The notes under the pieces are model-generated. The model was given only the letters and a program-made list of their open reading frames with translations. It searched no databases and was not told the DNA's origin. From Gammaproteobacteria bacterium (ex Lamellibrachia satsuma) (GTDB taxonomy: Bacteria; Pseudomonadota; Gammaproteobacteria; Chromatiales; Chromatiaceae): DNA of 64,000 bases. Shown here piece after piece: positions 2,101 to 21,385 of the stretch. The translations under genes and the position numbers were made by a program. Each line of letters begins with the position of its first letter. Position 1 is the stretch's first letter. Where the stretch lies: NCBI GenBank assembly GCA_019623805.1, contig CP053680.1, positions 1,776,001-1,840,000 of the forward strand, in the 5' to 3' direction.

Positions 2101-2115
2101 AGAAACGCTTAACAA

Positions 2116-2138
2116 CAGGGCCGGTCAAACCGGCCCTG
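2116..2138 (-). terminator. Perfect 10-bp hairpin between tuf and tRNA-Trp
   Basis: CAGGGCCGGT (2116-2125) and ACCGGCCCTG (2129-2138) form a perfect stem with a 3-base loop just after the tuf stop. The downstream minus-strand sequence TTGTTAAGC is only weakly U-rich. It may therefore act as a leaky terminator or as a 3' stabiliser/processing hairpin before the tRNA. Confidence 0.6.
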
Positions 2139-2154
2139 CACAACAATACATCGA

Positions 2155-3345: not shown

Positions 3346-3415
3346 TGGTTTTCTCTCCAGGTCTCTCTAACTATTTCAAAGATAAATTCGCGCGCTTACG
3401 CACGCCTTGACAAAC

Positions 3416-3491
3416 TGGAGCCCAGAAGCAGATTTGAACTGCCGACCTCACCCTTACCAAGGGTGTGCTCTACCAACTGAGCTATCTGGGC
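3416..3491 (-). tRNA. tRNA-Thr (anticodon GGT)
   Basis: 76 bases on the minus strand with encoded CCA at 3416-3418. The acceptor GCCCAGA pairs with TCTGGGC. The anticodon arm is CACCC-TTGGTAA-GGGTG, giving anticodon GGT. It is the last tRNA before tuf in the Tyr-Gly-Thr cluster. Confidence 0.97.
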
Positions 3492-3587
3492 AAAACTCTC
3501 TATTGCCGTCCCGCCGGGGGTACAACATAATTAAACGGCGGCACTGCCGTCGTGGCGACCACCGAGTTATGTGACCCCCAACTATAT

Positions 3588-3661
3588 TGGAGCGGGTGAT
3601 GGGAATCGAACCCACGTATTCAGCTTGGAAGGCTGAAGTTCTACCATTGAACTACACCCGC
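3588..3661 (-). tRNA. tRNA-Gly (anticodon TCC)
   Basis: 74 bases on the minus strand with encoded CCA at 3588-3590. The acceptor starts GCGGGTG, the D loop is the short form, the anticodon loop reads CTTCCAA with TCC as anticodon, and the T arm is GGTTCGATTCCC. It is the middle tRNA of the cluster. Confidence 0.97.
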
Positions 3662-3706
3662 GCAGCCAAGCGACGCTTCGTTCACCAAAACCGCTACAAC
3701 TTCAAA

Positions 3707-3752
3707 ATCTGGTGGAGGGGGGAGGATGATTCCGGGCATCCTGCCCTCCACC
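3707..3752 (-). pseudogene. Deleted relic of a second tRNA-Tyr unit
   Basis: 3707-3727 is identical to the 3' end of tRNA-Tyr plus its trailer (compare 3887-3907). 3731-3745 resembles the promoter -10/discriminator stretch upstream of that tRNA (compare 3985-3999; both contain CCGGGCAT.CTGCC). The tRNA body that should lie between them is gone. The fragment also forms a 9-bp inverted repeat (GGTGGAGGG / CCCTCCACC). It reads as a tandem copy of the promoter-tRNA-Tyr unit that suffered an internal deletion. Confidence 0.65.
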
Positions 3753-3891
3753 CCACCAGGGTCGGCCTGCGGCCGTTCAAATTCGTTCCCGACGAATTTG
3801 TCGAACCTTTTTCGGTCCTCATCCTCCCCTTTTCAGGGTAAGGAGCCTCATCGCGATATAAACCAAATTCCACCCACATCGCAATAACATC

Positions 3892-3976
3892 TGGTGGAGG
3901 GGGGAGGATTCGAACCTCCGAAGGCTGAGCCGTCAGATTTACAGTCTGATCCCTTTGGCCACTCGGGAACCCCTCC
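3892..3976 (-). tRNA. tRNA-Tyr (anticodon GTA)
   Basis: 85 bases on the minus strand with encoded CCA at 3892-3894. It is a class II tRNA with a long variable arm. The acceptor starts GGAGGGG, the anticodon arm is CAGA-CTGTAAA-TCTG with GTA as anticodon, and the T arm is GGTTCGAATCC. It is the first tRNA of the Tyr-Gly-Thr-tuf transcription unit, directly behind a good sigma-70 promoter. Confidence 0.97.
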
Positions 3977-3991
3977 AAGCGCGAGCCGGGC

Positions 3992-4020
3992 ATTCTGCCG
4001 CCTTGGAAACACAAAGTCAA
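3992..4020 (-). promoter_or_regulatory. Sigma-70 promoter of the tRNA-Tyr/Gly/Thr-tuf unit
   Basis: On the minus strand TTGACT (4015-4020) is followed after exactly 17 bases by CAGAAT (3992-3997), then GC-rich GCCCGGC. The tRNA begins about 15 bases further on. A GC-rich discriminator is the hallmark of promoters under stringent (ppGpp) control, so growth-rate control is a reasonable inference. Confidence 0.75.
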
Positions 4021-4195
4021 CACAAAGACCAAACAAAATCACCCGGCGCAGGGCGTCGCGAATTATACACAGACACAAGTCAACGCTCTCTCAAAACCCT
4101 TCGATTCATCCAATTCAAACGACCGGACTTGCAGGCAGGCCTGATTACCTTTTAACTACCCCACAGGGAAAAACCGACAGCCACAGCAGATCCAA

Positions 4196-5923
4196 ATGAA
4201 AAATCAGACCTTTGCTGCCTTTGCAGCCACCTCGTTTCTCATCATAACCGGCTGTACCGGGATACCGACAACAGATCCACAAACCGCCATCACGACCCCA
4301 CCAAAGACGCCGACACCAAACCCGGCAGCCCCGCTGGATGGCCGCATGTCGGACATTATCTACGACATCCTTGCAGCAGAAGTCGCGGCCCAGCGCGGCC
4401 AGCACGACACTGCCTATGAGCACGCCTCCAATGCCGCCCACATCAGCCGGGCGCCTGCCGCCGCTGAACGCGCCACGAGACTTGCCCTGCTTAGCCATCA
4501 GACAGATAAGGCGCTGCAGAGCGTAAACTTCTGGATTGAGATCGATCCAGAATCCCTTAAGGCCCATCAGATTGCCGCCATCCTCTATATTCGCGCTAAA
4601 AACCGGCAGGCGTCAGTCTTGCATTTGAGTAAGGTTGCAGCGATCGCCAATCAGGCAGGCCAATCCGGTTATATTCAGGCCGCCGCAATCGCTGAGAAAT
4701 CCACCAGTAAAGACAACGCCCTGCAACTGATGCAATTGGTCATTCCTCAGGATACGTCTGATCCGGATGCACTATACGCCCTCGCTCTGAGCGCCAGCCA
4801 CGCCAAGGAACATGCCGTTGCTGAAGACTACCTTCACCGCGCGCTTCAAACCCGGCCGGACTGGACAAAAGGCCTGTTACTGCTAAGTCGCTCATTGATG
4901 TTACAGGACCGCAAGGATGAGAGCATTGAGGTTCTTGCCAAGGCCGCCCTTCAATCACCCAAAGATATTCAACTCCGCATCACATACGCCCGCACACTGG
5001 TGGATCTGCATCGGCTTGACGATGCACACGACGAGTTCAGCAAACTCTACAAACTGGAACCCGATAACGCCGATATCGTCTACGCGCTCGGAGTGCTCTC
5101 CATTCAGCGCAAAGAACTCAAAGCTGCGAGAGGCTTTTTTCAGCACCTGCTGTCGATGGGAAAAATGGGGAGTCAGTCCACCCTGCATCTGGGACAGATC
5201 GAAGAGCTCGACAAACACCCTCAAAAGGCCTTCGAATGGTATGAAAAGGTCGACGGCAAAGAACGGGCTGAGGCACGCATCCGCATGGCGGGCATTCTGG
5301 TCTCTCTGGACAACCTGAACGGCGCCCGTGAAATATTGCAGCAATTGCGCTCATCCACACCCACAAACGCCCTCAAACTCTTTCTCGTTGAAGCCAATCT
5401 CATGCGCGATGCCGGTGAATACAAAATCGCGATGGAGATCTATGATTCTGCCCTGCAGAAATTCCCGGACAACATCGATTTGCGCTATGCCCGCGCCCTG
5501 AACGGTGCCGATATCGGCCGGATCGACATCCTTGAAGCAGACCTGAAACGCATATTGAAAGACAATCCGGATCACGCCGACTCTCTCAATGCCTTGGGTT
5601 ATACCCTGGCCGACCAGACTGATCGCCTGCAGGAGGCCCAGGCCTATATCCAGAGAGCACTCGACCTGAAACCCGGCAATGTCGCCATCCTCGACAGCAT
5701 GGGCTGGGTCGAGTACCGGCTCGGCAATCTGGAGCAGGCGCTGAAATTTCTGCAACAAGCCGCCGATAAAGAACCGGATGCCGAGATCGCCGCCCACCTT
5801 GGTGAGGTTCTCTGGATGATGGGGAGAAAGCAGGAGGCCCGTGCGGTTTGGGACGCAGCAATGAAGCGGGAACCGAAGAATCGATATATCGGCCCCACCA
5901 AACAGCGACTCTCCGGCAATTAA
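4196..5923 (+). CDS. TPR-repeat lipoprotein upstream of ispE
   Basis: 575 residues. An N-terminal lipoprotein signal (hydrophobic AAFAATSFLIITGC, modified Cys about residue 20) and a Thr/Pro-rich linker are followed by tetratricopeptide repeats over most of the length (for example ALGYTLADQTDRLQEAQAYI, AILDSMGWVEYRLGNLEQAL). It is probably anchored in the envelope as a protein-protein scaffold. In Pseudomonas a similar TPR protein precedes lolB and then ispE; here ispE follows after only 9 bases and no lolB is present. The exact partner cannot be told from sequence. Confidence 0.88.
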   Translation: MKNQTFAAFAATSFLIITGCTGIPTTDPQTAITTPPKTPTPNPAAPLDGRMSDIIYDILAAEVAAQRGQHDTAYEHASNAAHISRAPAAAERATRLALLSHQTDKALQSVNFWIEIDPESLKAHQIAAILYIRAKNRQASVLHLSKVAAIANQAGQSGYIQAAAIAEKSTSKDNALQLMQLVIPQDTSDPDALYALALSASHAKEHAVAEDYLHRALQTRPDWTKGLLLLSRSLMLQDRKDESIEVLAKAALQSPKDIQLRITYARTLVDLHRLDDAHDEFSKLYKLEPDNADIVYALGVLSIQRKELKAARGFFQHLLSMGKMGSQSTLHLGQIEELDKHPQKAFEWYEKVDGKERAEARIRMAGILVSLDNLNGAREILQQLRSSTPTNALKLFLVEANLMRDAGEYKIAMEIYDSALQKFPDNIDLRYARALNGADIGRIDILEADLKRILKDNPDHADSLNALGYTLADQTDRLQEAQAYIQRALDLKPGNVAILDSMGWVEYRLGNLEQALKFLQQAADKEPDAEIAAHLGEVLWMMGRKQEARAVWDAAMKREPKNRYIGPTKQRLSGN

Positions 5924-5932
5924 GCCAGCATC

Positions 5933-6772
5933 GTGCCTGAAAGCACTGCATGGCCCGCCCCCGCCAAATTGAATCTGACGTTGCGCATCGTTGGGCGCCG
6001 CCCCGATGGCTACCACGAAATACAGACAGTTTTTCAGTTTCTCGACCTGCAGGATGAACTCCACTTCCAGCCACGCAGTGATGGCCGCATCGTTCTCGCC
6101 ACACCACTACCTGGCGTCGCTGCGGAAACCGACCTCACGGTACGCGCAGCAAACCTGCTGAAACAGCGCACAAAGCCCATACAGGGCGTCACCATCTCTA
6201 TCGACAAGCGCCTGCCAATGGGTGGCGGCTTGGGCGGTGGCAGTTCCGATGCCGCCACCACGCTTGTAGCACTCAACCAAATCTGGGAGACGGGACTGGA
6301 CAATGCAACGCTGGCAAAGCTTGGCCTCGCCTTGGGAGCCGACGTACCAATCTTCATCCACGGACGGGCTGCCTGGGCGGAAGGCATCGGTGAGACACTC
6401 ACTGATCTGGATCTTCCCCAGCCCTGGTACCTTGTCCTTGCGCCGGACTGCCACGTCTCCACCGCAGAAACATTCTCAGCACCTGATTTGACACGCAACT
6501 CCCCCCGCATCAGAATACGCGACTTTCTGGAGGGCGACAGGAGAAACGACTGCCTATCCGTGGTGCGCCGACGTTATAATAAAGTCGCAGCAGCACTTGA
6601 TTGGCTGGATCAGTTTGCTCCGGCGCAGATGACCGGTTCCGGCGCCTGTGTATTTGCCGCATTTTCGGATGCATCAACAGCAGAGGCGATTCTTAATCGC
6701 CTGCCCGCTGACTTTGTGGGTTTTGTGGCGCGCGGAATCAACCGATCACCGCTGCTGACACGGGTCGTTTAA
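5933..6772 (+). CDS. ispE: 4-diphosphocytidyl-2-C-methyl-D-erythritol kinase
   Basis: 279 residues, normal for IspE, with a GTG start 9 bases after the TPR gene. It is a GHMP kinase: the N-terminal PAPAKLNLTLRIVGRRPDGYH motif region contacts substrate, the ATP loop PMGGGLGGGSSDAAT is at about 95-109, and the C-terminal MTGSGACVFAAF motif is present. It phosphorylates CDP-methylerythritol in the MEP isoprenoid pathway. It is followed by tRNA-Gln and prs, a conserved gammaproteobacterial neighbourhood. Confidence 0.97.
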   Translation: MPESTAWPAPAKLNLTLRIVGRRPDGYHEIQTVFQFLDLQDELHFQPRSDGRIVLATPLPGVAAETDLTVRAANLLKQRTKPIQGVTISIDKRLPMGGGLGGGSSDAATTLVALNQIWETGLDNATLAKLGLALGADVPIFIHGRAAWAEGIGETLTDLDLPQPWYLVLAPDCHVSTAETFSAPDLTRNSPRIRIRDFLEGDRRNDCLSVVRRRYNKVAAALDWLDQFAPAQMTGSGACVFAAFSDASTAEAILNRLPADFVGFVARGINRSPLLTRVV

Positions 6773-6800
6773 CGAGCTGTTGAGTGGCATAAAGAATTAT

Positions 6801-6875
6801 TGGGGTATAGCCAAGCGGTAAGGCAGCGGGTTTTGATCCCGTCACTCCCAGGTTCGAATCCTGGTACCCCAGCCA
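6801..6875 (+). tRNA. tRNA-Gln (anticodon TTG)
   Basis: 75 bases on the plus strand including encoded CCA (6873-6875). The acceptor TGGGGTA pairs with TACCCCA. The D arm is GCCAAGCGGTAAGGC, the anticodon loop TTTTGAT gives TTG, and the T arm is GGTTCGAATCC. It lies in the ispE-prs gap, where a tRNA-Gln is commonly found. Confidence 0.98.
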
Positions 6876-9428: not shown

Positions 9429-10991
9429 GAGTCTGTCGGATTTAACCAGTCCCATTTGATAAAATACTGTAAGCCAAAGAATAACGAACCGAAGTCAGTA
9501 TGTCAGATAAATTCCGCACGATTAATCGAGACACCCCCTATCTGTTGCCGCCCTCATTACAGGACTGGCTACCAGAGAACCATTTGGCGCGATTTATCGT
9601 GGACATCGTAGAACAGCTGGATCTGAAAGAGCTGGAATCTCAATACGGTGGCGGAGGAAAAGCGCCCTACCATCCAGCCATTTTGCTTTCACTGCTGTTC
9701 TACGGTTACGCAACCGGCGTATTCTCCAGCCGAAAGTTGGAGCAAGCCACCTACGACTCCGTGGCCTTCCGGTTCATTACGGCAGACAGCCATCCAGACC
9801 ATGACACCATCGCCACCTTTCGCAAACGCTTTCTCAAGGAGTTGAAGGGATTCTTTGTCCAGATATTAGTGATAGCCAAGGCGATGAGTCTTTTGAAGAT
9901 AGGCAATGTGAGTTTGGATGGGACAAAGGTCAAGGCCAATGCCAGCAAACACAAGGCGATGAGTTGGGGGTATGCCAACAAGCTTGAAGAGCAGCTTCAT
10001 CGTGAAGTCGAGCTGTTGCTGAAAAAGGCCGAACAGGCCGATGCAGAAGAAGAGCCGGAACTGGATATTCCAGAGGAACTCAAACGTCGTGAGGACCGGC
10101 TTGCTGCGATAGCCAAGGCTAAGAAAGAGATCGAACGAAGAGCGCGTGAGCGCTTTGAAAAAGAACGGGCGGAATACGAAGAGAAGGTGAAGCGGCGTAA
10201 GGAACGAGAGGAAAAGACAGGGAAGAAGGCCAGAGGTAGAGTGCCAAAGCCGCCAGAAGAAGGTCCACAGGAAAAAGACCAAGTCAATTTCACGGATGAG
10301 GAGTCACGCATCATGCCCTCATCGGAAGGGTTTGTTCAGGCCTATAACGCCCAAGCGGCAGTTGATACCGGTACCCACCTGATCGTGGAGAACCATATTA
10401 CCCAGCAACCCAATGACAAACAGGAAATAGAACCTGCACTTGCACAACTGAAGGCAGCAGAAGAGCAGCTGGGAAAACCACAAGGTCTGTTGGCGGATAC
10501 GGGTTACTTCAGTGAAGAGAATGTCAATCGTTGTGAAGCACAGGAGATCACCCCCTACCTCTCCGATAGCCGCGAACAGCACAACCTGCCGCTGGAAGAG
10601 CGGCTGAAACAGGTGCCGCCCTGCCCGGAAGATGCCGATATGTTAACCCGAATGAGGCATCGACTCAGTACACCGGAAGGCAAGGCCGTGTATGCCACAC
10701 GGAAATCGACAGTTGAGACCGTCTTCGGCATTATCAAAGAAGTAATGGGATTTCGGCAATTTCACCTTCGAGGGAGTGATTCAGCGCAAGGTGAATGGAA
10801 TCTGGTATGTACGGCATGGAACCTGAAGCGGATGCATGCGCTGGCAGGCTGAGATATCGACAAGGATAGGTCAGTCTTTCATAATTCACTGCCCTACATA
10901 GGGCTTATATTCCTACAGAGGCAGCGATTATGGGAAAAACACGGTGGGCCGGAAAATATCCCTGGCTCAATGGATCAAACCCGACAGACTC
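9429..10991 (+). mobile_element. IS1182-like insertion sequence, complete
   Basis: A 1563-base element. The left end GAGTCTGTCGGATTTAACC (9429 on) and the right end, read inward on the minus strand as GAGTCTGTCGGGTTTGATCC (from 10991), match over their first 11 bases and most of the rest. Each end is flanked by CTAG (9425-9428 and 10992-10995), consistent with a 4-base palindromic target duplication. It carries one intact transposase. It has landed just after pth without damaging a visible gene. Confidence 0.93.
9500..10852 (+). CDS. IS1182-family transposase
   Basis: 450 residues, uninterrupted. The N-terminal domain (NRDTPYLLPPSLQDWLPENH) is typical of IS1182/IS5-like transposases. DDE candidates are visible: Asp in SLDGTKVKANASKHK, Asp in LLADTGYFSEENV and Glu in KSTVETVFGIIKEVMGFRQF. 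A highly charged coiled-coil-like insert (about residues 170-260) separates the first and second Asp. No frameshift or internal stop is present, so the element may still be mobile. Confidence 0.95.
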   Translation: MSDKFRTINRDTPYLLPPSLQDWLPENHLARFIVDIVEQLDLKELESQYGGGGKAPYHPAILLSLLFYGYATGVFSSRKLEQATYDSVAFRFITADSHPDHDTIATFRKRFLKELKGFFVQILVIAKAMSLLKIGNVSLDGTKVKANASKHKAMSWGYANKLEEQLHREVELLLKKAEQADAEEEPELDIPEELKRREDRLAAIAKAKKEIERRARERFEKERAEYEEKVKRRKEREEKTGKKARGRVPKPPEEGPQEKDQVNFTDEESRIMPSSEGFVQAYNAQAAVDTGTHLIVENHITQQPNDKQEIEPALAQLKAAEEQLGKPQGLLADTGYFSEENVNRCEAQEITPYLSDSREQHNLPLEERLKQVPPCPEDADMLTRMRHRLSTPEGKAVYATRKSTVETVFGIIKEVMGFRQFHLRGSDSAQGEWNLVCTAWNLKRMHALAG

Positions 10992-11076: not shown

Positions 11077-11856
11077 ATGAAAAAACTACTCTTCCGCATC
11101 GCGGGGCTTCTGATGCTGGTGATTCTATGCCACTCTGCATCTGCCACAGAGAGCAACCCGGAGGCCGTTGCCCTTTTGCAAAAGAGCGAATCCCTGATGC
11201 GCTCGAAGGCCACGGAAGTCACATATCAAGTGGATATAGTTCGCCCCGACTGGAAACGCACCCTGGAATTTCTCAGTCACGACGACTATGAGAACAACCG
11301 CTTTCGCATGGAGATTCTTTCGCCACGCAAGACCAGAGGGACCGTGTTTCTGAAAGTCGACAATAAACTCTCCATGTACCTGCCGAAACTGCGGCGCCAG
11401 ATCGCCATCTCTCCTGCCATGATGCACGACGCCTGGATGGGTTCTGACTTTAACAATCAGGATCTTCTGGAGGCAGATTCATTGATCAGCGACTACACTC
11501 ACCTGATTGCACGGCGCGAAGGGGAGGGGCCGGAGGCAATTATCACCATAGAATCCTTTCCTAACGAAGATGCCACTGTCTCCTGGCATATGCTCGTACA
11601 GCGCATTCGCGGCGATGGTATGCCGCTGGAAATCAGGTACATCTGCAAAGACAAGGTTCCCGGGCGCCGCCTGCTGTTTGAAGCCCCCAAAGAGATGGAC
11701 GGACGGGTTATCCCCACCCGCCTGGTAATGGAACCACTAAAGAAACAAGGTAAAAAAACGACAATTACCGTCAAATCCGTCAAATTCGATGCAAACTTCA
11801 ATCCTGATCTGTTTGAGCCAATGAAGAAAAAGAAAACACAGGCGGACACACAGTAG
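11077..11856 (+). CDS. LolA-like outer-membrane lipoprotein-sorting family protein
   Basis: 259 residues from the ATG at 11077, chosen because AAGGTGG lies 6 bases upstream and the signal peptide (MKKLLFRIAGLLMLVILCHSASA) starts here. The mature part resembles the lipoprotein-sorting LolA-like family: repeated beta strands, a YQVDIVRPDWKRTLEF strand, and SPRKTRGTVFLKVDNKLSMYLPK. It ends in a Lys-rich tail. It is first in an operon with two FtsX-type permeases and an ATPase, so it is probably the periplasmic partner that receives a hydrophobic cargo. It is not the housekeeping LolA by length or context. Confidence 0.8.
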   Translation: MKKLLFRIAGLLMLVILCHSASATESNPEAVALLQKSESLMRSKATEVTYQVDIVRPDWKRTLEFLSHDDYENNRFRMEILSPRKTRGTVFLKVDNKLSMYLPKLRRQIAISPAMMHDAWMGSDFNNQDLLEADSLISDYTHLIARREGEGPEAIITIESFPNEDATVSWHMLVQRIRGDGMPLEIRYICKDKVPGRRLLFEAPKEMDGRVIPTRLVMEPLKKQGKKTTITVKSVKFDANFNPDLFEPMKKKKTQADTQ

Positions 11857-11880
11857 AAACAATCACAATACGGAGACCCT

Positions 11881-13107
11881 GTGATAAAACCGGTCATCTA
11901 CGCCGTTGCACTTCGCAACCTTCTGGGACATCTGCGCCGCACCATGCTCACGGTTGGCGCCATCGCGGTAGGACTCAGTGCATTGATCTTCCTCTGGAGT
12001 TTCAATGACGGCTTGCACCGCAACATGCTGCAGAACTTTCAGGACGCAATCATCGGCAGCATCCAGATCCATCACGAGGGTTTTTTCGAACGACCGGAAC
12101 TCTCCCGCCATCTTAGAAACCCCGACAAGATCATCACGACTGTTGAACAGGCTGGCGTCAAGCGTTGGAGCCGACGTCTCGAAGCCTTCGCCCTGGCCGC
12201 CTCCGATGAAACCACTGAAGGCGTCATGCTGATCGGCATGGAAGCAGACAGAGCGCCTGCCATCACCGATCTTGAGAAACGCATCTCCATCGGGCGTTTC
12301 CTGCGGGAAGACGATGCGTACGCCTGCATCCTCGGAGCCACAACCGCCCGCAACCTCAAACTTGGTCTCGGCGACCCTGTCGTGATGATTGGTTATGATC
12401 GTTTTGGCGCACTTGTGGCCGAAGAGTTCACACTGGTCGGCATCATCACCAGCGGCGAGATGGGGCTGGATCGGGGCATGGCCCTGACCAATATCAAATC
12501 CCTGCAGGAGATGCTCGATATGCCTGACGGAGTGACTGATATAGTGCTGCGCACCCCGGAAGAGAGGATTCAACAACTGACGGATGAATTGATTTTTGCG
12601 CTGTCGGATGAGAATGTCGAGGTCATGCCATGGAGCACCATGTTTCCCGTCATGAATGAGTGGATCATACTGCACGACGGCTTTCTCTACCTTTTTCTCG
12701 CTGTCGTACTCTTCATCGTTTTAGCCGGCGAACTCAATACAATGCTGCTCTCGATGCTGGAACGCACCCGTGAATTCGGCATCTTTATGGCCATTGGAAC
12801 CGAGCGGTATGAAATAGGCTTAATGCTTGTATTTGAAGCCTTGTTTATTGGTCTTGCCGGTACACTTTTAGGAATTGTCTTTGGTACCGGCATCGTTCTC
12901 GTGACGCACTCAACCGGTATCGATCTATCCATTCTGTTGGGTTCCACCTCACGGTTTTACGTCGACTCACTGGTCTATCCTCATCTCAATCTCGACCATC
13001 TGGGCACTACTGTGGGGGCAATCCTGATCGCCTCGATCATTGCCGGTCTCTATCCAGCCTGGAAGGCCAGTCGCCTGCAACCGGTTGAGGCGATGCGAAA
13101 TGTCTAA
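11881..13107 (+). CDS. ABC transporter permease, FtsX/MacB (LolC/E-like) family
   Basis: 408 residues, GTG start. One N-terminal membrane helix (about 20-45) is followed by a large periplasmic domain (about 50-260) and then three C-terminal helices containing the FtsX core (ELNTMLLSMLERTREFGIFMAIG). This is the topology of lipoprotein-releasing or MacB-type permeases. It overlaps the next permease by 8 bases, so the pair probably forms a heterodimer served by the ATPase at 14353. The cargo is unknown. Confidence 0.88.
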   Translation: MIKPVIYAVALRNLLGHLRRTMLTVGAIAVGLSALIFLWSFNDGLHRNMLQNFQDAIIGSIQIHHEGFFERPELSRHLRNPDKIITTVEQAGVKRWSRRLEAFALAASDETTEGVMLIGMEADRAPAITDLEKRISIGRFLREDDAYACILGATTARNLKLGLGDPVVMIGYDRFGALVAEEFTLVGIITSGEMGLDRGMALTNIKSLQEMLDMPDGVTDIVLRTPEERIQQLTDELIFALSDENVEVMPWSTMFPVMNEWIILHDGFLYLFLAVVLFIVLAGELNTMLLSMLERTREFGIFMAIGTERYEIGLMLVFEALFIGLAGTLLGIVFGTGIVLVTHSTGIDLSILLGSTSRFYVDSLVYPHLNLDHLGTTVGAILIASIIAGLYPAWKASRLQPVEAMRNV

Positions 13108-14350
13108 TGCCAAGCGCCTCTCACTGACAGCCTATCTCTCACTGGCCTTGCGAAACCTGCTACGGAACCCGCGCCGTACCGGCATCACACTGGCAACCAT
13201 GATTTTCGGTATCGCCACACTGACCCTGCTCAGTGCCCTCAATGATGGCTGGCTGGAGCAGATGAGGGACAACTTTATTCTCAGTTTCACCGGGCATGTG
13301 CAGATACATGCCAGCGGATTCGAGTCTTCACAGAACCTCAATGACCATATCAAAGCGCCCGGAAAGATAATCCTGCTGCTCCAGGACTCCCCGGAGATCC
13401 AGGGCTGGACACAGCGCATTCGCACCTCCGGGCTGGTCTCTCTTGGAGGCAGCAGTGCCGGCGTCCAGATCATGGCCACCGACCCTGAACAGGAGACTTG
13501 GGTAACACATATGCACCGGGGGCTTAAACAGGGCCGCTGGCTCAATCCCGGCACTTCCCACGACCTCCTGCTTGGTATAACTGTCGCCCAGAACATAGGC
13601 GCTGAGATCGGCGACAGGATCGTGCTCATGGCGCAACGCCCCAACGGCGAGATGGTCTCCGAGATTTTTTTTCTGCGCGGTATTCTCGAGACCGGCGCAC
13701 CTCAGATTGACCGTACGCTGGCACTGATACCCCTGAATGCCGCGCAGGCCTGGTTCGAGATGGGAGAATCCGTCACCGACATCGTCATAAGAGCCAGCAG
13801 CCATGAAAACACTGCCGGCCTTCAGCATCACTTCAATCAGGAACTCCGCGGTGATGGTTATGAAATTCTCGCCTGGCAGGATCTCGACCCGATGGTTCGC
13901 CAATGGCTGGAATTCAGCGATGCCTATGGCCTTATCATCATACTTGTTGTCGTGGCACTGGTACTCACCGAGATCCTTAATACCATGTTGATCTCCCTGC
14001 ATGAGCGACAGAAAGAGCTTGGCATAATGATCGCAATCGGCACCCGAAAGTCGCAGATATTCTTTATGCTGCTGATTGAAGCCGTGATGCTGATCCTGCT
14101 CGGCGGTGCCTTGGGCTACGGGGTGGGTGGACTACTTGTTTTGCACCTTTCCGATGGCGGCATTGATCTCTCCTACTTCGCCAATGCCTTCAAGTTCTTC
14201 TACATGGATCCTGTCATACTGCCGCTGCTGACCCTTGATTCAGCCACACGGATACTCGGCACCACCTTGGTCGCTGCCCTGATCGCTGGTCTCTATCCGG
14301 CCTGGAGGGCAACAAAAATTGAAATCAGCCAATCCCTGCGAACCTTCTGA
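13100..14350 (+). CDS. ABC transporter permease, FtsX/MacB family, second subunit
   Basis: 416 residues from the ATG at 13100, inside the 3' end of the preceding permease. It is paralogous to it: NLLRNPRRTGITLATMIFGIATL at the first helix, the conserved VQIHASGFESSQNLNDHI periplasmic start, and the FtsX core TEILNTMLISLHERQKELGIMIAIGT. The N-terminal extension available from 13040 only translates the neighbour's last codons in another frame and was not used. Probably partners with the first permease. Confidence 0.88.
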   Translation: MSNAKRLSLTAYLSLALRNLLRNPRRTGITLATMIFGIATLTLLSALNDGWLEQMRDNFILSFTGHVQIHASGFESSQNLNDHIKAPGKIILLLQDSPEIQGWTQRIRTSGLVSLGGSSAGVQIMATDPEQETWVTHMHRGLKQGRWLNPGTSHDLLLGITVAQNIGAEIGDRIVLMAQRPNGEMVSEIFFLRGILETGAPQIDRTLALIPLNAAQAWFEMGESVTDIVIRASSHENTAGLQHHFNQELRGDGYEILAWQDLDPMVRQWLEFSDAYGLIIILVVVALVLTEILNTMLISLHERQKELGIMIAIGTRKSQIFFMLLIEAVMLILLGGALGYGVGGLLVLHLSDGGIDLSYFANAFKFFYMDPVILPLLTLDSATRILGTTLVAALIAGLYPAWRATKIEISQSLRTF

Positions 14351-14352
14351 CC

Positions 14353-15198
14353 ATGATTCAGCCAGATAACAGTTCAGCTATCATCACCGTCAAGAAGCTG
14401 CATAAATGCTATTGGGTCGGCAGCATGCCTTTCCCTGCGCTCAACGGCGCCAACCTTTCAATAGACAGGGGAGAGTTTGCTGTTCTCGCCGGCCGCTCGG
14501 GCTCCGGAAAAAGCACGTTGCTGAACGTCATTGGCGCACTTGAATCTGCCGATAACGGCGAAGTCATCGTCAATGGCGAAAATATTCTCGGCATGAATCA
14601 CACCGAGCGCACCCTCTTTCGACTGCATAATATCGGTTTTGTTTTTCAATCATACAACCTGATCAGGGTGCTAAGTGCCAGAGAGAACATCGCCTATGTC
14701 TGCCAACTACAGGGAATGGATAAAAAAGAGAGTGAAGGGATCGCAGATCACTGGCTGAATGAAGTGGATATGGGACATCTCGGTTACCGCAGACCTGACC
14801 AGCTCTCCGGCGGCCAACAGCAGCGAGTCGCCGTAGCCAGGGCATTGGCAACCAATCCAAAGATCGTGCTGGCTGACGAGCCCACTGCAAACCTCGATAC
14901 ACTGACAGGTCAGCGACTGATGTGCCTGCTACAGCAGCTCAACGATAAATTCGGCACCACCTTTCTGATCTCATCCCATGACCCCGATGTCAAAAATGCT
15001 GCCAGCCGTCTCATCAAACTCGCCGATGGTCAGGTGGTGCGCAATTGGGAAAAGATCCCCCCTACCCCACCGCCAATCAGTAAGGCCTGTCCCATAAAGA
15101 ATCTGCCCTTGGCCGAAAAAGTACGGCAGTTCCTGCGCAACAAGCGCAAAGGGCCTTCAAAAACAGACAAAAAGGGACCGACGCCACGCCGTTCATAA
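14353..15198 (+). CDS. ABC transporter ATP-binding protein, LolD/MacB type
   Basis: 281 residues, 2 bases after the second permease. Walker [12 protein letters not shown] is at about 47-57, the signature is [15 protein letters not shown], Walker B is [12 protein letters not shown], and the H-loop His lies in ISSHDPD. The core of about 230 residues is extended by about 50 basic, Pro-rich residues at the C-terminus (ending [10 protein letters not shown]), not usual for LolD. It powers the two FtsX-type permeases. This closes the plus-strand operon, which faces the RND operon. Confidence 0.9.
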
Positions 15199-15228
15199 AA
15201 AAACCGATGGCGCATACACGGAAACAAA

Positions 15229-15256
15229 AAAGCCGGCCCTGAATCGGGCCGGCTTT
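15229..15256 (-). terminator. Rho-independent terminator of the RND operon
   Basis: AAAGCCGGCCC (15229-15239) and GGGCCGGCTTT (15246-15256) make a perfect 11-bp stem with a 6-base loop. On the minus strand the stem is followed by a run of T, giving a strong terminator for the RND/DUF1302/DUF1329 operon. On the plus strand the tail is only TTTCAC, so it may serve the converging ABC operon more weakly. Confidence 0.85.
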
Positions 15257-15281
15257 CACTTGCAGTCTGCAATACGCAAAC

Positions 15282-15311
15282 ACCCGATCCGCTGCGCTTA
15301 ATCAAGCCTAC
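15282..15311 (-). repeat. Single degenerate copy of the 30-bp palindromic repeat (type A)
   Basis: Matches the minus-orientation type A repeat seen at 32813 and 57382 (CCCGATCCGCTGCGCTT ... CCTAC). The second stem arm is changed to AATCAA, so the hairpin is broken. It lies in the gap between two converging operons. Confidence 0.65.
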
Positions 15312-15339
15312 AGCGGATCGAGAGTCATCTGTTCAATGG

Positions 15340-18108
15340 CTAATTATCCCCAAACACAAACTTCGGTTTGAGCCACTTCACCATCAGCGGTAGCAGCAAC
15401 AGCGCCGTCACCACGTCGATCAGAAGCGCCTCACTGATGTAGACACCCAATCCCCAGGTGTTTGCCAGATCGGTATTCAGCAACGGAATGAAACAGCCCA
15501 GCAATACCAGCACGGAGATAATAACCGCAGATCCGGTCGTGTTCAGGGTGTTCTCCAGAGACTTTGTCCAGTCCCCGGCAGTGGCCTGCATCTCCTCACG
15601 AAGCCTTGAGATCATATAGATACCGTAATCGATACCCAGTCCCATCGCGATACTCAAAGCAACTTGCAGATGGAAGGCGAGATTACCGGACCAGTTCTTC
15701 ACACTGGTGAAGTAGCCTCCAAGACCGTACTGGGCATACAGGGTGATGAACAGCAACACGACCAGGATTACCGAAACCGTCACCGAACGGAATATCAGTG
15801 CCGCAATGACGAAGATTGCCGCCGCCGTCAGCATGGGACCGGATAGCCAGTTGGCAACCGCCACTTCCCGGGTTGCTTCGGTCGCGCCAAGGAAACCGCC
15901 AACCGCAGGCCTGATGTAATCGGGACCCTCAACAGACAGCTCATTGGTATCACTCGACAGGTCATCTACCGGGCCCGAGCGCAGACCAAAATTGACCTTA
16001 CTGAAACCGGGATCATTCTTGTGTTCCTCGATATACTGCTGAATGTCCATGGTGACCTTATGGGTCTCTTTCGGATCCATGGTGTTGACAAACCCCATCA
16101 CCACCCCGTCGTTCCAATCCCGGGTGACGAAAGAGTCCATATCGCCATCGTCGGTCATGGTCTCCAGCAAGCCATTGAACAGCTGCACGATATCGTCACC
16201 GCTACGATCATCTTCCGGGTCGATAGAACGAAGTTTGGCGGAGGTCGGGATGTAGAGGTCCTTGATGTCCGGCTTGGTACCCGGCTCTGCGGTCAACAGC
16301 ATGTTGACGAGACGAATGTACTGCGCGTAGGAGCCGGTGAAACCGATAAACTCATGGGCGCGCATCCACTCTTCCATCGCCTCGATATCCGCCAGCACAT
16401 CAGCCTGGTTGAAGATACCCTGTGCCCCGCAGGGATCAGGGTCCCAACACCCAAGTTTTTCCTTGTACTTGTCGCACTGTACCAGGCGTTCGCCCATATC
16501 CTCGATATCGAAGAGTTCTTCGGGAAAGGGTTCGTCGACACAGGATTCCGCCACCGGCTCCTTGCCGCGAATCGGCACGGTCACGGAGATGACGCCGGGC
16601 ATAATCTCATTCAGACGTTCCAGCTGCTGAATGGTGATCGACTGCTCCTTGAACGCAGCCCGGGAGTAGTTGATACCCTTCTCCACACCAGGCATCAGAT
16701 CGTCGGAAGTGCCGTTTAGAATACCGCTATAGTAGGTCGACACACCTATGATCACCGCGACAAAACCAATCGGCAGCCATTTGCCCGGCCCTGCCAGCAG
16801 ACCAGAGATGAAACTCCCCACCTTGGTCTCCCACCCCCTTTCAAGTTCGGCCTCTTCCCTACTCGCTTCCGCCGTATTACAGGGAACGCTGACCATCAAC
16901 AACGGAATCAACGTAGTGGTTGTGAACAGCAGGGTAAGCATGCCGAACATGCCGAAATAGGCGTAGGCCTTGTAGAATGAGATATCCACCGTTGCCAGAG
17001 TGGCAAAACCCACCATATCGGTCACGATTGAGAGCGTGGCCGGCACGATAGTGTGGGAGATGGAAATTCTGGCGGCGGTCTCACACCCAACCCCCTTCGC
17101 CTGCTCCTGCATAAATCGGCGGGTCACCTGAACCGAGTGCCCTATTCCGATCGCCAACAACAGCATCGGGGTCAGCACCATCATGGTCGTCAGCTTGAAT
17201 GCAGTAAAACCCATCAGACCGAGGGTCAAAATGATGGTCGCGCCCACGCCCAGCATCGGAAAAAGCGCCCCGCGCCAGTTGCGGAACTCAAACCAGAGCG
17301 CCGCAACCACGATCGCCAACGAGATGACGAAGAGCCACCATTTGTTGACAAGATCCGCAAGCATCCAGGCCAGAAAGTAGGGTTCACCCGCTACCAGCAA
17401 TTCATAGCGGTCATCCGCACCATGCTCATCCATCATGGCCCGTACTTCACGCACCCAGGGCAGGTAGATCTCTTTTACGTCATCAGTGTAGTCACCGATG
17501 ATATAGAGTGATTTGGCGACACAGTTTTTTGTATAACGATCTTCGAATTCACATTTATTGCCATCCGCATCTTCAAATCCCACCAGCATCGGACCCATTA
17601 CAGGGTTGGTCTCGATACCCTCTTTAAGAAAGGCGAGCTGTTCTTTTGCCGTTGCAGGATCACTGCTGATGCCTTCGGTGGGAATCAGCCGTTTGAAAAC
17701 GAGCCCATTTTCATCCGCGCCCATGAACTTGATCTTCTTCGCCGCGATATCGATGAAGTTGGAGGGTCGGGAGGTCTCCAGGGAGACCAGTATTTCATGG
17801 ATCTCCTGTACCTTGTTGACGAACCAGCCCTGGTAGACATCACCCTCTTTGATCCGCAGCGTGGCAACCATCAGGTTACCCATGCCGTAGTTATGCTCCG
17901 CATAGAGGTTGGTGGCGACATAGCGGTTACTGGGCGGTAACAGCGTATCAGGATCGTTACGCATATCCAGATTCTTGACCTGTAATGCAGTAATGACCGT
18001 CATTATCAACAACAGAAACATCAGCGGTTTGCGGTGACGGACTACAAACGCCGCATAACGTTCGGCCAATGTATTATTTGATTTGTTATTGGTTGCAGCA
18101 TCGCTCAT
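15340..18108 (-). CDS. RND/MMPL-superfamily transporter
   Basis: 922 residues with two MMPL-like halves. Helix 1 (about 28-48) is followed by a large periplasmic loop, five helices (about 250-420), a second periplasmic domain (about 450-730) and six C-terminal helices (about 740-915). The core motifs GIGHSVQVTRRFMQEQ and AMGLGIDYGIYMISRLREE are RND-like. Proteins of this type usually stand with DUF1302 and DUF1329 genes, as here, and are thought to move hydrophobic molecules across the envelope. It is the last gene of the minus-strand operon, separated from DUF1302 by an attenuator-like hairpin. Confidence 0.9.
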   Translation of the reverse strand: MSDAATNNKSNNTLAERYAAFVVRHRKPLMFLLLIMTVITALQVKNLDMRNDPDTLLPPSNRYVATNLYAEHNYGMGNLMVATLRIKEGDVYQGWFVNKVQEIHEILVSLETSRPSNFIDIAAKKIKFMGADENGLVFKRLIPTEGISSDPATAKEQLAFLKEGIETNPVMGPMLVGFEDADGNKCEFEDRYTKNCVAKSLYIIGDYTDDVKEIYLPWVREVRAMMDEHGADDRYELLVAGEPYFLAWMLADLVNKWWLFVISLAIVVAALWFEFRNWRGALFPMLGVGATIILTLGLMGFTAFKLTTMMVLTPMLLLAIGIGHSVQVTRRFMQEQAKGVGCETAARISISHTIVPATLSIVTDMVGFATLATVDISFYKAYAYFGMFGMLTLLFTTTTLIPLLMVSVPCNTAEASREEAELERGWETKVGSFISGLLAGPGKWLPIGFVAVIIGVSTYYSGILNGTSDDLMPGVEKGINYSRAAFKEQSITIQQLERLNEIMPGVISVTVPIRGKEPVAESCVDEPFPEELFDIEDMGERLVQCDKYKEKLGCWDPDPCGAQGIFNQADVLADIEAMEEWMRAHEFIGFTGSYAQYIRLVNMLLTAEPGTKPDIKDLYIPTSAKLRSIDPEDDRSGDDIVQLFNGLLETMTDDGDMDSFVTRDWNDGVVMGFVNTMDPKETHKVTMDIQQYIEEHKNDPGFSKVNFGLRSGPVDDLSSDTNELSVEGPDYIRPAVGGFLGATEATREVAVANWLSGPMLTAAAIFVIAALIFRSVTVSVILVVLLFITLYAQYGLGGYFTSVKNWSGNLAFHLQVALSIAMGLGIDYGIYMISRLREEMQATAGDWTKSLENTLNTTGSAVIISVLVLLGCFIPLLNTDLANTWGLGVYISEALLIDVVTALLLLPLMVKWLKPKFVFGDN

Positions 18109-18141
18109 AGCGAAGACCTCTACCGGAAGGGTAAAAATGAA

Positions 18142-18175
18142 AAGGCAGACAGCGGTGTCTACCGCTGCCTGCCTT
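18142..18175 (-). terminator. Attenuator-like hairpin between DUF1302 and the RND gene
   Basis: Minus-strand stem AAGGCAG-G-CAGCGG / CCGCTG-T-CTGCCTT with one internal mismatch, followed by TTTTCATTTTT. It sits 34 bases after the DUF1302 stop and 34 bases before the RND start. It could reduce RND expression relative to the abundant outer-membrane partner. Confidence 0.65.
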
Positions 18176-18208
18176 AGTTTAGATCAAAATACAGATCTCA
18201 TAGGAAAC

Positions 18209-20302
18209 TTATTCGAAGATCCACTTGAGTCCCAGCTGTACATTTGATGAGTCGGCGAACTGACCGAAGGTCGTATTCTCTTCACCCCAATAGTTGTTCC
18301 ACTCGAAGGCGCCGATGATCTCGTCGGTGAAGCTGTACTCCACATCGAAACGATTCCACCAGCCGCCGTCCTCTTCGAACATAACGATGTTGTTCCAGCG
18401 GTGCTCCTGGGAACCACCGAAGGGCTTGGAGAAGAAGAGCGAATAGAACTCCTTGAACTCATGCGCCTTGTATAGGCCGTTGCTCATGTGCATGGTGGCC
18501 ATTTCACCGGTGTAAGTAGAGCAGTCGTAGCTGTTGCCTGCCTGCGTGGTACAGGTCCGACTATCATCGATAAAGTCCATGTTCCAGAACTGGATGAACT
18601 GGGCGCTCACCAGCATGTTGGTCGCTACAGTGATATCCGCGCCCAGCACATACTTGAACATATCCGCCTCTTGCATGCGCAGCGAACTGGTGAGATCGCC
18701 AATACCCAGCAGGCGCTTGTCAACCACAGGCTGCATCTCATCCTTGTTGTAGAGGGCCTCAGCACGAAACACGATGGAACCAAGCGCTGCGGTGTCCAGT
18801 GCATAGTCAAGGGAACCACCAAGACTGTGGATACGATTCAGCCTCTCCGTCATCACCATCTCCACCGTATGGGTGTTGGTGTTGGCTGCAAAGGTGGTTG
18901 GATCGATCGCACCATAGTACTCTCCCGCAGCGTTATGCAACAGGATGGATACCGAATTTGAACCATCCGGTGCAAAAGAGTTGGGGATCTGATCCGCAGT
19001 CAGATCGGTTGCCGGGTTGGGCGCCATTGCACCGCCTCCGATGTCCATCGACTGGGCGCGCTGCACAGTCAAAGTCTCCTTGGTGACCGCATCACGCCAG
19101 CTCATATCCACAAAGGGGTTGGCGTCATAATGATAGAAGTAGTTGAAGGAGAAGTTTAAGCCACCATCCGTACTGCCCTTATAACGAGTACCAAAGTTGG
19201 CATCCGCTGTGTCCGGATAGTCGCGCTCGTAGACTGCACCGGCGCTGCTGCCGGCCATGCCCGCCCCGGCAAAGGAGTTGAAGGTGGCGAAAGTGGCATT
19301 GCCCATATACTCGAAGGCGGAGGCGGCCTCAGTTACGCTCCAATTCACATCAGACGGTGCCGATCCGGTGACACTGGTCACATTGGTAACCCAGAAGTTG
19401 CCATTGGGATCAATGGCTACAGTCGGATCGCTCAGACCAAACTGGGCGATCTGGTTGAGCAGAATGCTACCTGGCGCGCCAGCGCCAATCGGATCGGGGT
19501 TGCTGGCAAAACCGTCCACGCTCAAGCCGGCGAAACCCACCAGACCGCTCGGAATCGGGGTGCCGCCGGTCAACATGCCGGCTTGTGCCGCATTGTTGAA
19601 GCTCTGTGCCACCGCTGCCAGGCGCGGGGTAACATTAAGAAAACCATTGACGCCGCCGGAAATGGAGTCAACGCCTTTCATCAGAAATGGCTGCTCGGGA
19701 TCACCGGATGCATTCAACCCCGGGATCTTGTTCTGCTCCACCTGTGAAACGATGAACTGGATATTGCCGCTCTCACCAATATTCTTTTCCGCATTGATCA
19801 TCCAAATTGGTATGCGTGCATCTTCCATTGCGTTCTGGTTGAGCTCACGATAGTCGGTGGGGTTGATGATATCGAGCAGCTTGATACCGTCTGCTGTTCC
19901 CCAAACCACCTGCTGTTTACCAAGACGGAAGTCCCAGCCAAATGCGGTGGTATCGAGATAGAGCTCCCGAAACCAGTCGTTCTGGGTATAGTTCTCGTGA
20001 CCTTTGTAGTCGTCGACACCTTCGGTGTCATAGATCAGGTTCAGCTCGCCGTGCCATGAACTCTCTTCACCAATATCGCCATTGAAGAAGATGCGCGCGG
20101 AGTTCTCAAACTTCAACAGGTCGCCGGCATTGTGTTCTGCGGTGTCCAGCATGGTCTTGGCTTGACCGGTCCGCTGACCCGACTTGGAAAAAACTGCAGT
20201 TTCATTTTTCAGATAACCACTGACTTCGACTTCAGCCAGTGCGGCACCAGGCAGCAGCATGGCAGCCAGCATGGACCGATAGAACACGGAGCGCTTATAC
20301 AT
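18209..20302 (-). CDS. DUF1302 family outer-membrane protein
   Basis: 697 residues from the ATG at 20302, supported by GGAGGAAAT just upstream; an in-frame start at 20347 lies ahead of this ribosome site and was rejected. A signal peptide (MYKRSVFYRSMLAAMLLPGAALA) is followed by beta-strand-rich sequence (VEVSGYLKNETAVF, DFRLGKQQVVWGTADG) and a C-terminal strand ending in Phe-Glu (QLGLKWIFE), as in outer-membrane barrels. DUF1302 proteins are of uncertain function. They co-occur with DUF1329 and RND genes, often in lipid, steroid or hydrocarbon contexts. Confidence 0.9.
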   Translation of the reverse strand: MYKRSVFYRSMLAAMLLPGAALAEVEVSGYLKNETAVFSKSGQRTGQAKTMLDTAEHNAGDLLKFENSARIFFNGDIGEESSWHGELNLIYDTEGVDDYKGHENYTQNDWFRELYLDTTAFGWDFRLGKQQVVWGTADGIKLLDIINPTDYRELNQNAMEDARIPIWMINAEKNIGESGNIQFIVSQVEQNKIPGLNASGDPEQPFLMKGVDSISGGVNGFLNVTPRLAAVAQSFNNAAQAGMLTGGTPIPSGLVGFAGLSVDGFASNPDPIGAGAPGSILLNQIAQFGLSDPTVAIDPNGNFWVTNVTSVTGSAPSDVNWSVTEAASAFEYMGNATFATFNSFAGAGMAGSSAGAVYERDYPDTADANFGTRYKGSTDGGLNFSFNYFYHYDANPFVDMSWRDAVTKETLTVQRAQSMDIGGGAMAPNPATDLTADQIPNSFAPDGSNSVSILLHNAAGEYYGAIDPTTFAANTNTHTVEMVMTERLNRIHSLGGSLDYALDTAALGSIVFRAEALYNKDEMQPVVDKRLLGIGDLTSSLRMQEADMFKYVLGADITVATNMLVSAQFIQFWNMDFIDDSRTCTTQAGNSYDCSTYTGEMATMHMSNGLYKAHEFKEFYSLFFSKPFGGSQEHRWNNIVMFEEDGGWWNRFDVEYSFTDEIIGAFEWNNYWGEENTTFGQFADSSNVQLGLKWIFE

Positions 20303-20371
20303 ATTTCCTCCCAAAATCTTGCAGGTAGCCAGCAGCAGGATCCCCATAGTGTGCCGACTAATTTTTTGATG

Positions 20372-20396
20372 CGGGCCGCCTCTGTTGGGCGGCCCG
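20372..20396 (-). other. Intercistronic hairpin between DUF1329 and DUF1302
   Basis: CGGGCCGCC (20372-20380) and GGCGGCCCG (20388-20396) form a 9-bp GC-only stem. On the coding strand no U tract follows, so it is more likely to protect the 3' end of the DUF1329 message or mark a processing site than to terminate. Confidence 0.55.
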
Positions 20397-20446
20397 TCTT
20401 TGTATTTGTGGCAGAAACACCGTCTTCGGCGCTTCTGCCTCAGTCA

Positions 20447-21385
20447 TTAACGCTTGATCTTACGCAGCGTCTTCTCCGACCATTTACTTTGCTTCCAATT
20501 CTGGTTGAATTTCACAACCTCATCGGGAATCACCGCCCAAGTCTCATGGCCGGAAGCGAAAGTCTTGCCGTACCAGTAGGCCCAGGACTGGGCACGCGGG
20601 TCATCCTGACCAAGGCTGACCCAGTTGCGATCGATCACCTTGATCTTCTCGCCACCCTTGAAGAATTCGGTACGGTAGTCGGCAAAGGTCTTGGTATCGA
20701 CGTAACTAACACGATGGTCGTACCACCAGTTTTGCTTCTTGGTAGTGCTCTTCAGCTTGTAGACCTCTTTGCCTTTATGCCCGCAAGCGGCATCCGGCGG
20801 ATTTTTCAGATTCTTGACCTTCACATCGGCAATGGCTCCCAAGCAATCATTGAACGTTTCGGTCCCCAGCAGTTCGTGGCTCTCATGCTTCGGCTTGCGC
20901 AGGGTGACATCACCAAAGGTGAAGTCGGTGCCGCCCCAGGCATCATCGTGGGCCGGCTCGGCAAAACGGCGGATCTTGCGCAGCGCAGGCAACCAGATGG
21001 CGTAGGCCTGGCTCTTGTTTTCATCGGTGTAGTCAGTGATCAACATACCGGTGCCTCTCAACTTACCGGAGCGGAAGATCGCCAGATCCATCGCGTTAAT
21101 CGCGCCATCGCCATAATCGTTGTTCAGATACCGCTCCAGTGCAATGGTGGTCGGCTTCTTGCCTTTCGACTTGTTGACCAGCACGGTTAACGTTCTACCC
21201 TTCTTGGTGATGCCGTAGTTCTTCAGCGCATAGAAGTGGTTGACGAAGTAGACCTGATCAGCGATGGCGTTGGCATCCGGTGTGCCTGTAGGCATGGGGA
21301 GAGTCTTGGATACGCCGGCAAAAGCCTCGGCGGACAAAAGTACCGGAACGACCGCGATTGCGGCGACAAGCTTGCGCAGTTGCAT
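20447..21385 (-). CDS. DUF1329 family protein, LolB-fold-like periplasmic/outer-membrane factor
   Basis: 312 residues from the ATG at 21385, with AGGAGG ten bases upstream. A signal peptide (MQLRKLVAAIAVVPVLLSAEAFA) is followed by a DUF1329-type body: a YGDGAINAMDLAIFRSGKLR region, WLPALRKIRRFAEPAHDDAW and a TDFTFGDVTLRK stretch. The family is regarded as structurally related to LolA/LolB, which points to binding of acyl chains. It is the first gene of the DUF1329-DUF1302-RND operon. Its real ligand is unknown. Confidence 0.88.
   Translation of the reverse strand: MQLRKLVAAIAVVPVLLSAEAFAGVSKTLPMPTGTPDANAIADQVYFVNHFYALKNYGITKKGRTLTVLVNKSKGKKPTTIALERYLNNDYGDGAINAMDLAIFRSGKLRGTGMLITDYTDENKSQAYAIWLPALRKIRRFAEPAHDDAWGGTDFTFGDVTLRKPKHESHELLGTETFNDCLGAIADVKVKNLKNPPDAACGHKGKEVYKLKSTTKKQNWWYDHRVSYVDTKTFADYRTEFFKGGEKIKVIDRNWVSLGQDDPRAQSWAYWYGKTFASGHETWAVIPDEVVKFNQNWKQSKWSEKTLRKIKR

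Follow-up and report, generated by a model that had tools for sequence, protein, structure and literature searches.

Among described systems, the closest to the gene set reported here is AmeABCD of Castellaniella defragrans, which comprises an HAE3-type resistance–nodulation–division (RND) transporter, a LolA-superfamily periplasmic protein, a DUF1302 outer-membrane protein, and AmeC, and whose deletion lowers monoterpene tolerance, as described in the available sections of that paper (PMC6394551). Similar proteins appear in the sections available of two further studies. In Pseudomonas putida, PP_0765/PP_0766 (DUF1302 and DUF1329) share a Tween20 phenotype with PP_2018/PP_2019 (a periplasmic protein and an efflux transporter), and substrate transport was proposed (PMC10866462). 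In Thalassolituus oleivorans, TOL_3187/TOL_3188, i.e., an MMPL/LolA-like protein and a neighbouring porin-like protein, were raised on a C28 alkane (PMC6304351). Here, we describe a locus of Gammaproteobacteria bacterium (ex Lamellibrachia satsuma), the genome of which is one contig (C1) of 4,323,754 bases; the window, i.e., the whole stretch of 64,000 nucleotides that was analysed, is its stretch 1776001–1840000. Two gene sets face each other in this window, a left set on the + strand (LolA-like carrier, two FtsX/MacB-type permeases, and an ATP-binding cassette (ABC) ATPase) and, convergent with it, a right set on the − strand (LolA-like carrier, barrel, and RND pump). The gene order, strands, and coordinates of all seven genes were confirmed by open reading frame (ORF) analysis and by Pfam and NCBIfam searches. 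The features, in window positions, are as follows.

11077..11856, + strand: left LolA-like periplasmic carrier (PF17131), ATG at 11077, longer GTG ORF from 11053; Pfam PF17131, E 2.1e-35
11881..13107, + strand: LolC/E-like permease 1; Pfam MacB_PCD and FtsX
13040..14350, + strand: LolC/E-like permease 2, ATG probably at 13100; Pfam MacB_PCD and FtsX
14353..15198, + strand: ABC ATPase of LolD/MacB type; Pfam ABC_tran, E 1.6e-33
15228..15257, no strand assigned: terminator-like inverted repeat between the convergent sets, 12-pair stem and T tail; pattern scan
15340..18108, − strand: RND transporter, MMPL type, nearest HAE3; Pfam MMPL, E 1.5e-25
18142..18175, − strand: 15-pair hairpin with T-rich tail between the barrel and RND genes; pattern scan
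18209..20347, − strand: predicted outer-membrane beta-barrel of the DUF1302 kind, 712 amino acids; DUF1302 matches in its family and AlphaFold
20447..21385 (ORF to 21415), − strand: right LolA-like periplasmic carrier (PF17131); Pfam PF17131, E 8.6e-17

The reading that we prefer, with a probability of roughly 0.6, is that the locus holds two separate transport units, namely an AmeABCD-like, envelope-spanning transporter of an apolar molecule (the right set) and an accessory LolCDE-like ABC set (the left set). The right set is a conserved unit. Among 77 named loci, taken from the best 80 of 106 in a scan by two peptide patterns, 70 have room for a carrier gene upstream of the barrel, and in 67 of these it is the directly adjacent gene; the RND gene follows the barrel directly in 57 of 67. 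The intergenic gaps within the set are about 100 bp in the window, and the hairpin at 18142–18175 may be an attenuator. The record titles of the right-set loci name tubeworm and lucinid symbionts, Sedimenticola, Thiosymbion, Thiomargarita, Thioalkalivibrio, Thiotrichales, Chromatiaceae, and Chromatiales, as well as an Ectothiorhodospiraceae bin, unplaced Gammaproteobacteria, a bin titled Dichelobacter nodosus, and Magnetococcales. A scan of the class gave the barrel in 10 of 369 genomes, from 8 families (thresholds: E 1e-30 for the barrel, for dsrA, and for a control barrel; E 1e-60 for the left permease). In a scan of the family, 19 of 96 genomes carry the close form of the barrel (E ~1e-21 or better), two of them as fragments (G086 and G016); at E 0.001, the same scan gives the barrel in 31 of 96 genomes and the left carrier in 28 of 96.

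Like AmeABCD, the right set joins an RND transporter, a LolA-superfamily carrier, and an outer-membrane protein (here a predicted barrel, probably of the DUF1302 kind) in one gene set. However, set against the available description of AmeABCD rather than its sequence, the right set differs in several ways. First, no gene for AmeC (COG4447) was found in the right-set cassette and its neighbours, to which the search was confined. Second, the right carrier fits PF17131 and not the DUF1329 model, and the barrel has 712 residues versus 605 in AmeABCD. Third, the right-set order is carrier–barrel–RND, and no catabolic genes were recognised beside it. We accordingly class it as a variant within the RND/LolA-like/DUF1302 kind. 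The P. putida system, as far as the available text goes, is spread over two loci and concerns Tween20 use, whereas the genes here form one locus. In T. oleivorans, likened by description and not by sequence from the part of the paper available, the LolA-like domain is reported to lie within the MMPL protein, whereas the right set has a separate carrier.

The window barrel itself has no Pfam or NCBIfam match, but DUF1302 is matched by 5 of the 37 sequences in its family alignment (best E 2.4e-18; L149 was dropped from this alignment for an internal stop). The label of DUF1302 barrel-like protein, given in an earlier, sequence-only reading of this stretch, thus needs correcting, since it would hold through relatives of the protein and not through a direct match. 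The AlphaFold model is confident, with a predicted local distance difference test (pLDDT) of 84.2 and a predicted template modelling score (pTM) of 0.84. Its best structural alignments are to OprD/Occ-type porins and AlgE, i.e., OpdQ (Z 22.1, root-mean-square deviation (rmsd) 3.3 over 304 residues) and AlgE 5iyu (Z 21.0, rmsd 4.7 over 329), with many porins close behind, a likeness of fold only; a profile search of solved structures found no relative by sequence. The model thus predicts a porin-type barrel, not a function. Among named relatives, the endosymbionts of two tubeworms, Escarpia spicata and Lamellibrachia anaximandri, come closest at the barrel, with 97–99% identity.

The RND gene scores 90.3 bits on the Pfam MMPL model (cut-off 20.5), which bears out the RND/MMPL pump of the sequence-only reading. 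It has weak sequence matches to MmpL and HpnN structures, and it stays below the NCBIfam cut-offs both for the hopanoid transporter HpnN (TIGR03480, 37.7 bits versus 751.85) and for the sterol transporter BstA (18 bits versus 1400). A motif in transmembrane segment 4, GxGHxVQ, is present in all seven aligned right-set RND proteins; its HxxQ core also occurs in two RND proteins of relatives, which were taken as Ame-type from their gene order, and is absent from a generic RND paralogue in this genome.

Both carriers score above the PF17131 gathering cut-off of 30 bits (left 122.5, right 61.8), and the left and right profiles share their best PDB sequence match, Porphyromonas gingivalis LolA3 (9tp6). 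The left profile, built from 8 sequences, matches the solved LolA-superfamily proteins 9tp6, 3bk5, 4z48, and 3buu. The right carrier model (AlphaFold, pLDDT 84.7) has LolA3 (Z 25.1) and 3bk5 (Z 22.5) among its nearest folds, whereas classical LolA scores only about Z 11. LolA3 is thus the closest solved fold, at 23% identity over the aligned part, and its role is unsettled in the sections of its paper available (PMC13103446). The solved DUF1329 protein 4z48 is also among the nearest folds (Z 23.0, rmsd 2.5 over 229 residues). However, the assignment of the right carrier to DUF1329 was rejected at the level of Pfam families, where the protein matches PF17131 and gives no DUF1329 match at E 0.1; in this genome, the DUF1329 model matches only at C1:475963–476226, outside the window. 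Read by eye, both translations open with a signal-like sequence and neither shows a lipobox, so that neither carrier looks anchored like LolB. Of what had been proposed from the letters, the LolA likeness and the closeness in fold to DUF1329 hold, whereas the DUF1329 family name is not borne out by Pfam. Two tandem copies of the right carrier occur in eleven named loci, mostly titled Sedimenticola (L122, L125, L126, L127, L130, L131, L136, L139, L140, L141, and L143).

We observe, then, the gene content of the right unit, its conserved order, and the predicted folds of its barrel and carrier; the docking of the carrier, the direction of transport, and the class of cargo are what we infer. The RND pump, placed in the inner membrane and presumably proton-driven, would pass cargo to, or take it from, the soluble LolA-like carrier, which would dock on the DUF1302-type barrel of the outer membrane, a layout that may be described as AmeABCD minus AmeC; by analogy with AmeABCD, the direction would be export. 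The left unit would be an ABC extractor similar to LolCDE, served by a LolA-like carrier of its own and transcribed separately; it would have arrived as a single block next to the right unit, in an ancestor shared by the tubeworm and lucinid symbionts and their near relatives. It probably serves the same envelope-lipid economy as the right unit rather than forming one complex with it.

Several points weigh against this reading. The RND gene is not directly beside the barrel in 10 of the 67 loci, so that it may be located at another site or be dispensable. The top NCBIfam score of the pump, on the HAE3 model TIGR00921, is 103.9 bits and does not reach the cut-off of 351.9. The Foldseek TM-scores of the barrel are modest (0.25–0.36 by query length), and its most conserved stretch (approximately residues 141–180), which may be a plug, is poorly modelled from about residue 151 on, so that a through-channel is not established.

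The left set has the parts of LolCDE–LolA, i.e., an ATPase, two FtsX-type permeases, and a LolA-type carrier, as the sequence-only reading had recognised, and Pfam and the gene order bear it out. However, permeases 1 and 2 score 119.5 and 119.1 bits on the lolCE model TIGR02212, below its cut-off of 362.45. Permease 2 matches LolE structures (phmmer, E 1.8e-15). For the ATPase, the DevA and LolD models score highest among the NCBIfam models, below cut-off, and its translation shows, by eye, the Walker A, signature, and Walker B motifs. The layout of MacAB–TolC is not found, since the ATPase and the permeases occupy separate ORFs (11881–13107, 13040–14350, and 14353–15198) with no MacB fusion. 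The left set was also considered as the main Lol system of the cell and rejected, since a lolCE gene scoring 516.7 bits, above the TIGR02212 cut-off, lies elsewhere in the genome (C1:4178948–4180183). We file the left set, by sequence, as a putative LolCDE-like paralogue. A further permease paralogue, with 122 bits on the lolCE model, is at C1:1709186, and a second ABC/FtsX/PF17131 set (L111) occupies C1:1708–1711 kb, its ABC and FtsX proteins sharing 26–43% identity with their left-set counterparts. NCBIfam recognises an IS1182-family transposase at 9500–10852, immediately upstream of the left carrier.

Each half is therefore a recognisable envelope transport set, as had been said. The sequence-only reading went further and proposed one joint route for a hydrophobic cargo, with ABC-driven and proton-driven arms. 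In such a route, both arms would supply a single cargo to one barrel and exchange it via the two LolA-like carriers. We consider this unlikely. The two sets converge on a gap of 141 bp, with a hairpin in it, between the left ATPase and RND genes and cannot be one operon. The inverted repeat at 15228–15257 is no more than a match to the consensus, of which the region holds 14 versus 9.5 (standard deviation 3.3) in shuffles. The arrangement recurs. Of the 45 named loci that extend 2 kb or more past the RND gene, 13 have the left ATPase within 700 bp of that gene and convergent to it. These adjacent left sets belong to tubeworm symbionts, to Thiodiazotropha and other lucinid symbionts, and to the gammaproteobacterial bin MO_103.B15, and the family scan shows direct adjacency in three genus groups.

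The sequence-only reading had suggested a gene-neighbourhood search for co-occurrence and had named, as the outcome that would speak against it, two modules almost never neighbours and of unrelated distribution, which is not what comparative genomics gave. Seven of the 8 family-scan genomes with a close left carrier (E <1e-60) also have the right barrel, the eighth being a 69% complete bin (one-sided Fisher p = 3e-5, kinship not corrected for). In addition, the class scan gives a left permease at 69% identity or above only in this family (2 of 369 genomes), with distant forms outside it (41% in one genome, 29–34% in four). A Magnetococcales locus (L154:10791–14582) has, by Pfam, a different lipid machine convergent to the same RND gene, consisting of two PqiA genes, an MlaD-domain gene, and an ABC_trans_aux lipoprotein gene; L159:12453–16214 looks alike by its ORFs, so that 2 of 11 Magnetococcales-titled loci have it, several being too short to show it. 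The protein families of PqiABC (MCE) lipid transport are unrelated to the left set, and their presence in this convergent position favours an envelope-lipid setting.

In the opposite direction, the right set usually occurs without the left one. Besides the 13 named loci with an adjacent left set, 50 were searched by genome (14 lay outside that search), and a close left permease is missing from 39 of these 50 further genomes with the barrel, the match in G134 being only 30% identical; the other 11 have one that is not directly adjacent in the stretch covered. The two sets are 5.8 kb apart in L175 and about 8 kb apart in G007. The L. barhami symbiont has them unlinked, at a distance of about 1 Mb, the left set remaining beside the TPR–ispE–prs–rplY genes; in G055, the two sets are on separate contigs. 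Moreover, G221 (96% complete, 7% contamination) has a left-like set at 38–54% identity, and the barrel was not found in it at E 1e-30.

The left set is a block of about 4 kb that was inserted later beside an older right set, as the spacing to rplY shows. This gene lies convergent beyond the RND gene in 27 of the 45 loci with room, at 0.7–1.4 kb in 14 of them and at 5.0–5.4 kb in 13, and it is precisely these 13 that have the left set; where seen, the gene between RND and rplY in the short-spacing loci is pth (named by look). The left and right trees recover identical main groups (one of tubeworm symbionts and one of lucinid symbionts, with MO_103.B15 and G055 apart) and branch differently within them. 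Across 17 taxa, the left–right distance correlation is 0.90. For the 10 taxa of the 17 with housekeeping sequence (prs, rplY, and a few ispE sequences), it is 0.88, versus 0.95 and 0.94 for left and right against housekeeping. The trees are thus consistent with vertical descent of both sets, and, since the two correlate no better with each other than each does with the housekeeping genes, co-descent suffices to explain the match. Agreement of the trees as proof of cooperation between the sets was therefore rejected, both agreeing equally well with the housekeeping genes.

A site empty in some loci and filled in others, and a co-occurrence explained by descent, would also be expected of chance neighbours, i.e., a left block that landed beside the right set and was carried along, the two serving unrelated cargoes (a lipoprotein or lipid subset on the left, efflux of an apolar toxin on the right). 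We regard this as a tentative but real possibility, somewhat short of an even bet. The surroundings of the right set are in keeping with it, as they are often housekeeping genes uninformative on cargo: many loci have hemA–prfA–prmC on one side and pth, rplY, prs, and ispE on the other (named by look), and in an ORF clustering of 82 loci the commonest clusters are mostly housekeeping neighbours. However, the adjacency has persisted while the left proteins diverged to about 55–72% identity between tubeworm and lucinid symbionts, and the only family-scan genome with the left carrier and no right barrel is the incomplete one. The preferred reading of two separate units and the rival explanations are not mutually exclusive.

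A further proposal concerns the cargo of the right set, which in sulfur oxidisers would be hydrophobic sulfur, either elemental or as long polysulfanes; we judge this quite improbable. A dsrA gene is found in 46 of the 50 barrel-bearing genomes, the four without a match including one titled Magnetococcales, and Magnetococcales-titled loci are among those with the right set. In the class scan, 9 of the 10 barrel genomes have dsrA versus 110 of the 359 others (Fisher p 2e-4), one barrel genome lacking it. However, 110 of the 119 dsrA genomes there have no barrel, and a control, a paralogous barrel of this genome found in 123 of the 369, is likewise enriched (dsrA in 69 of 123 versus 50 of 246 without it), so that kinship accounts for part of the signal; the dsrA association alone was therefore rejected as proof. 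Outside this family, one genus shows physical linkage: two of its genomes have a DsrN-like gene, part of a dsr-type cluster, no more than about 7 kb from the carrier. In G391, dsrA is about 19 kb from the barrel, and between them are genes that, from Pfam domains, we take to be DsrL-, DsrO-, DsrP-, and DsrN-like, together with a sensor kinase and a rhodanese (L206–L207); G511 repeats this order, beginning with a DsrL-like gene and running through the carrier into the first part of the barrel gene, at which its contig breaks off (L220–L222). Two genomes of the sister genus (G279 and G512) show no dsr-type neighbours in the stretches covered. The link of the right set to sulfur is thus suggestive only, and the neighbours that hint at a cargo, dsr genes on the one hand and PqiABC-like genes on the other, disagree.

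Literature searches gave no match for the Riftia symbiont with MMPL, and nothing recognised on the carrier–barrel–RND set among the papers listed for sulfur globules with RND and for LolA-like with RND; the passages covered of a Riftia symbiont paper (PMC7787665) have no match for 'lipoprotein' or 'RND'. This genome has two dsrA copies (C1:484081–485286 and 1002196–1003398), and two dsrA matches are also found in G007 and in ten lucinid or tubeworm symbiont genomes. A paralogous set (L110, C1:473.5–485.3 kb) consists of an MMPL pump, a PF17131/DUF1329 carrier, and a 444-amino-acid barrel-like gene, followed by putA, a transposase, and dsrAB; its closeness to dsrAB was not used as evidence, putA and the transposase lying between.

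Elsewhere in the window, the genes next upstream of the right set are, by Pfam, a fructosamine kinase and a DUF3106 gene. Close to the left end are genes for tRNA-Trp, -Thr, -Gly, -Tyr, and -Gln (2025–6875). In many gammaproteobacteria, lolB sits between a tetratricopeptide repeat (TPR)-like gene and ispE; here, the TPR-like and ispE-like genes at 4196–6772 (named by look) are about 10 bp apart with no lolB between them, this gap being the only place looked at.

Beyond the Lol, Lpt, and Mla routes, little is known of how apolar molecules cross the periplasm. Parts of this kind are similarly paired in aryl polyene clusters. With its pump, carrier, and barrel in near-constant order in gammaproteobacteria and Magnetococcales-titled loci, the three-gene unit offers a clean test object for such transport. 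As a long shot, the carrier–barrel–RND set with its long barrel might give dsr-type sulfur oxidisers a dedicated route through the outer membrane, along which apolar sulfur or a lipid for sulfur storage would pass between the periplasm and the outside; in the symbionts, an ABC-driven, LolA-type arm would have been added beside it. The presence of dsrA in nearly all checked genomes with the right set, including those of uncultured animal symbionts, points to a physiological setting that is testable in a cultured relative.

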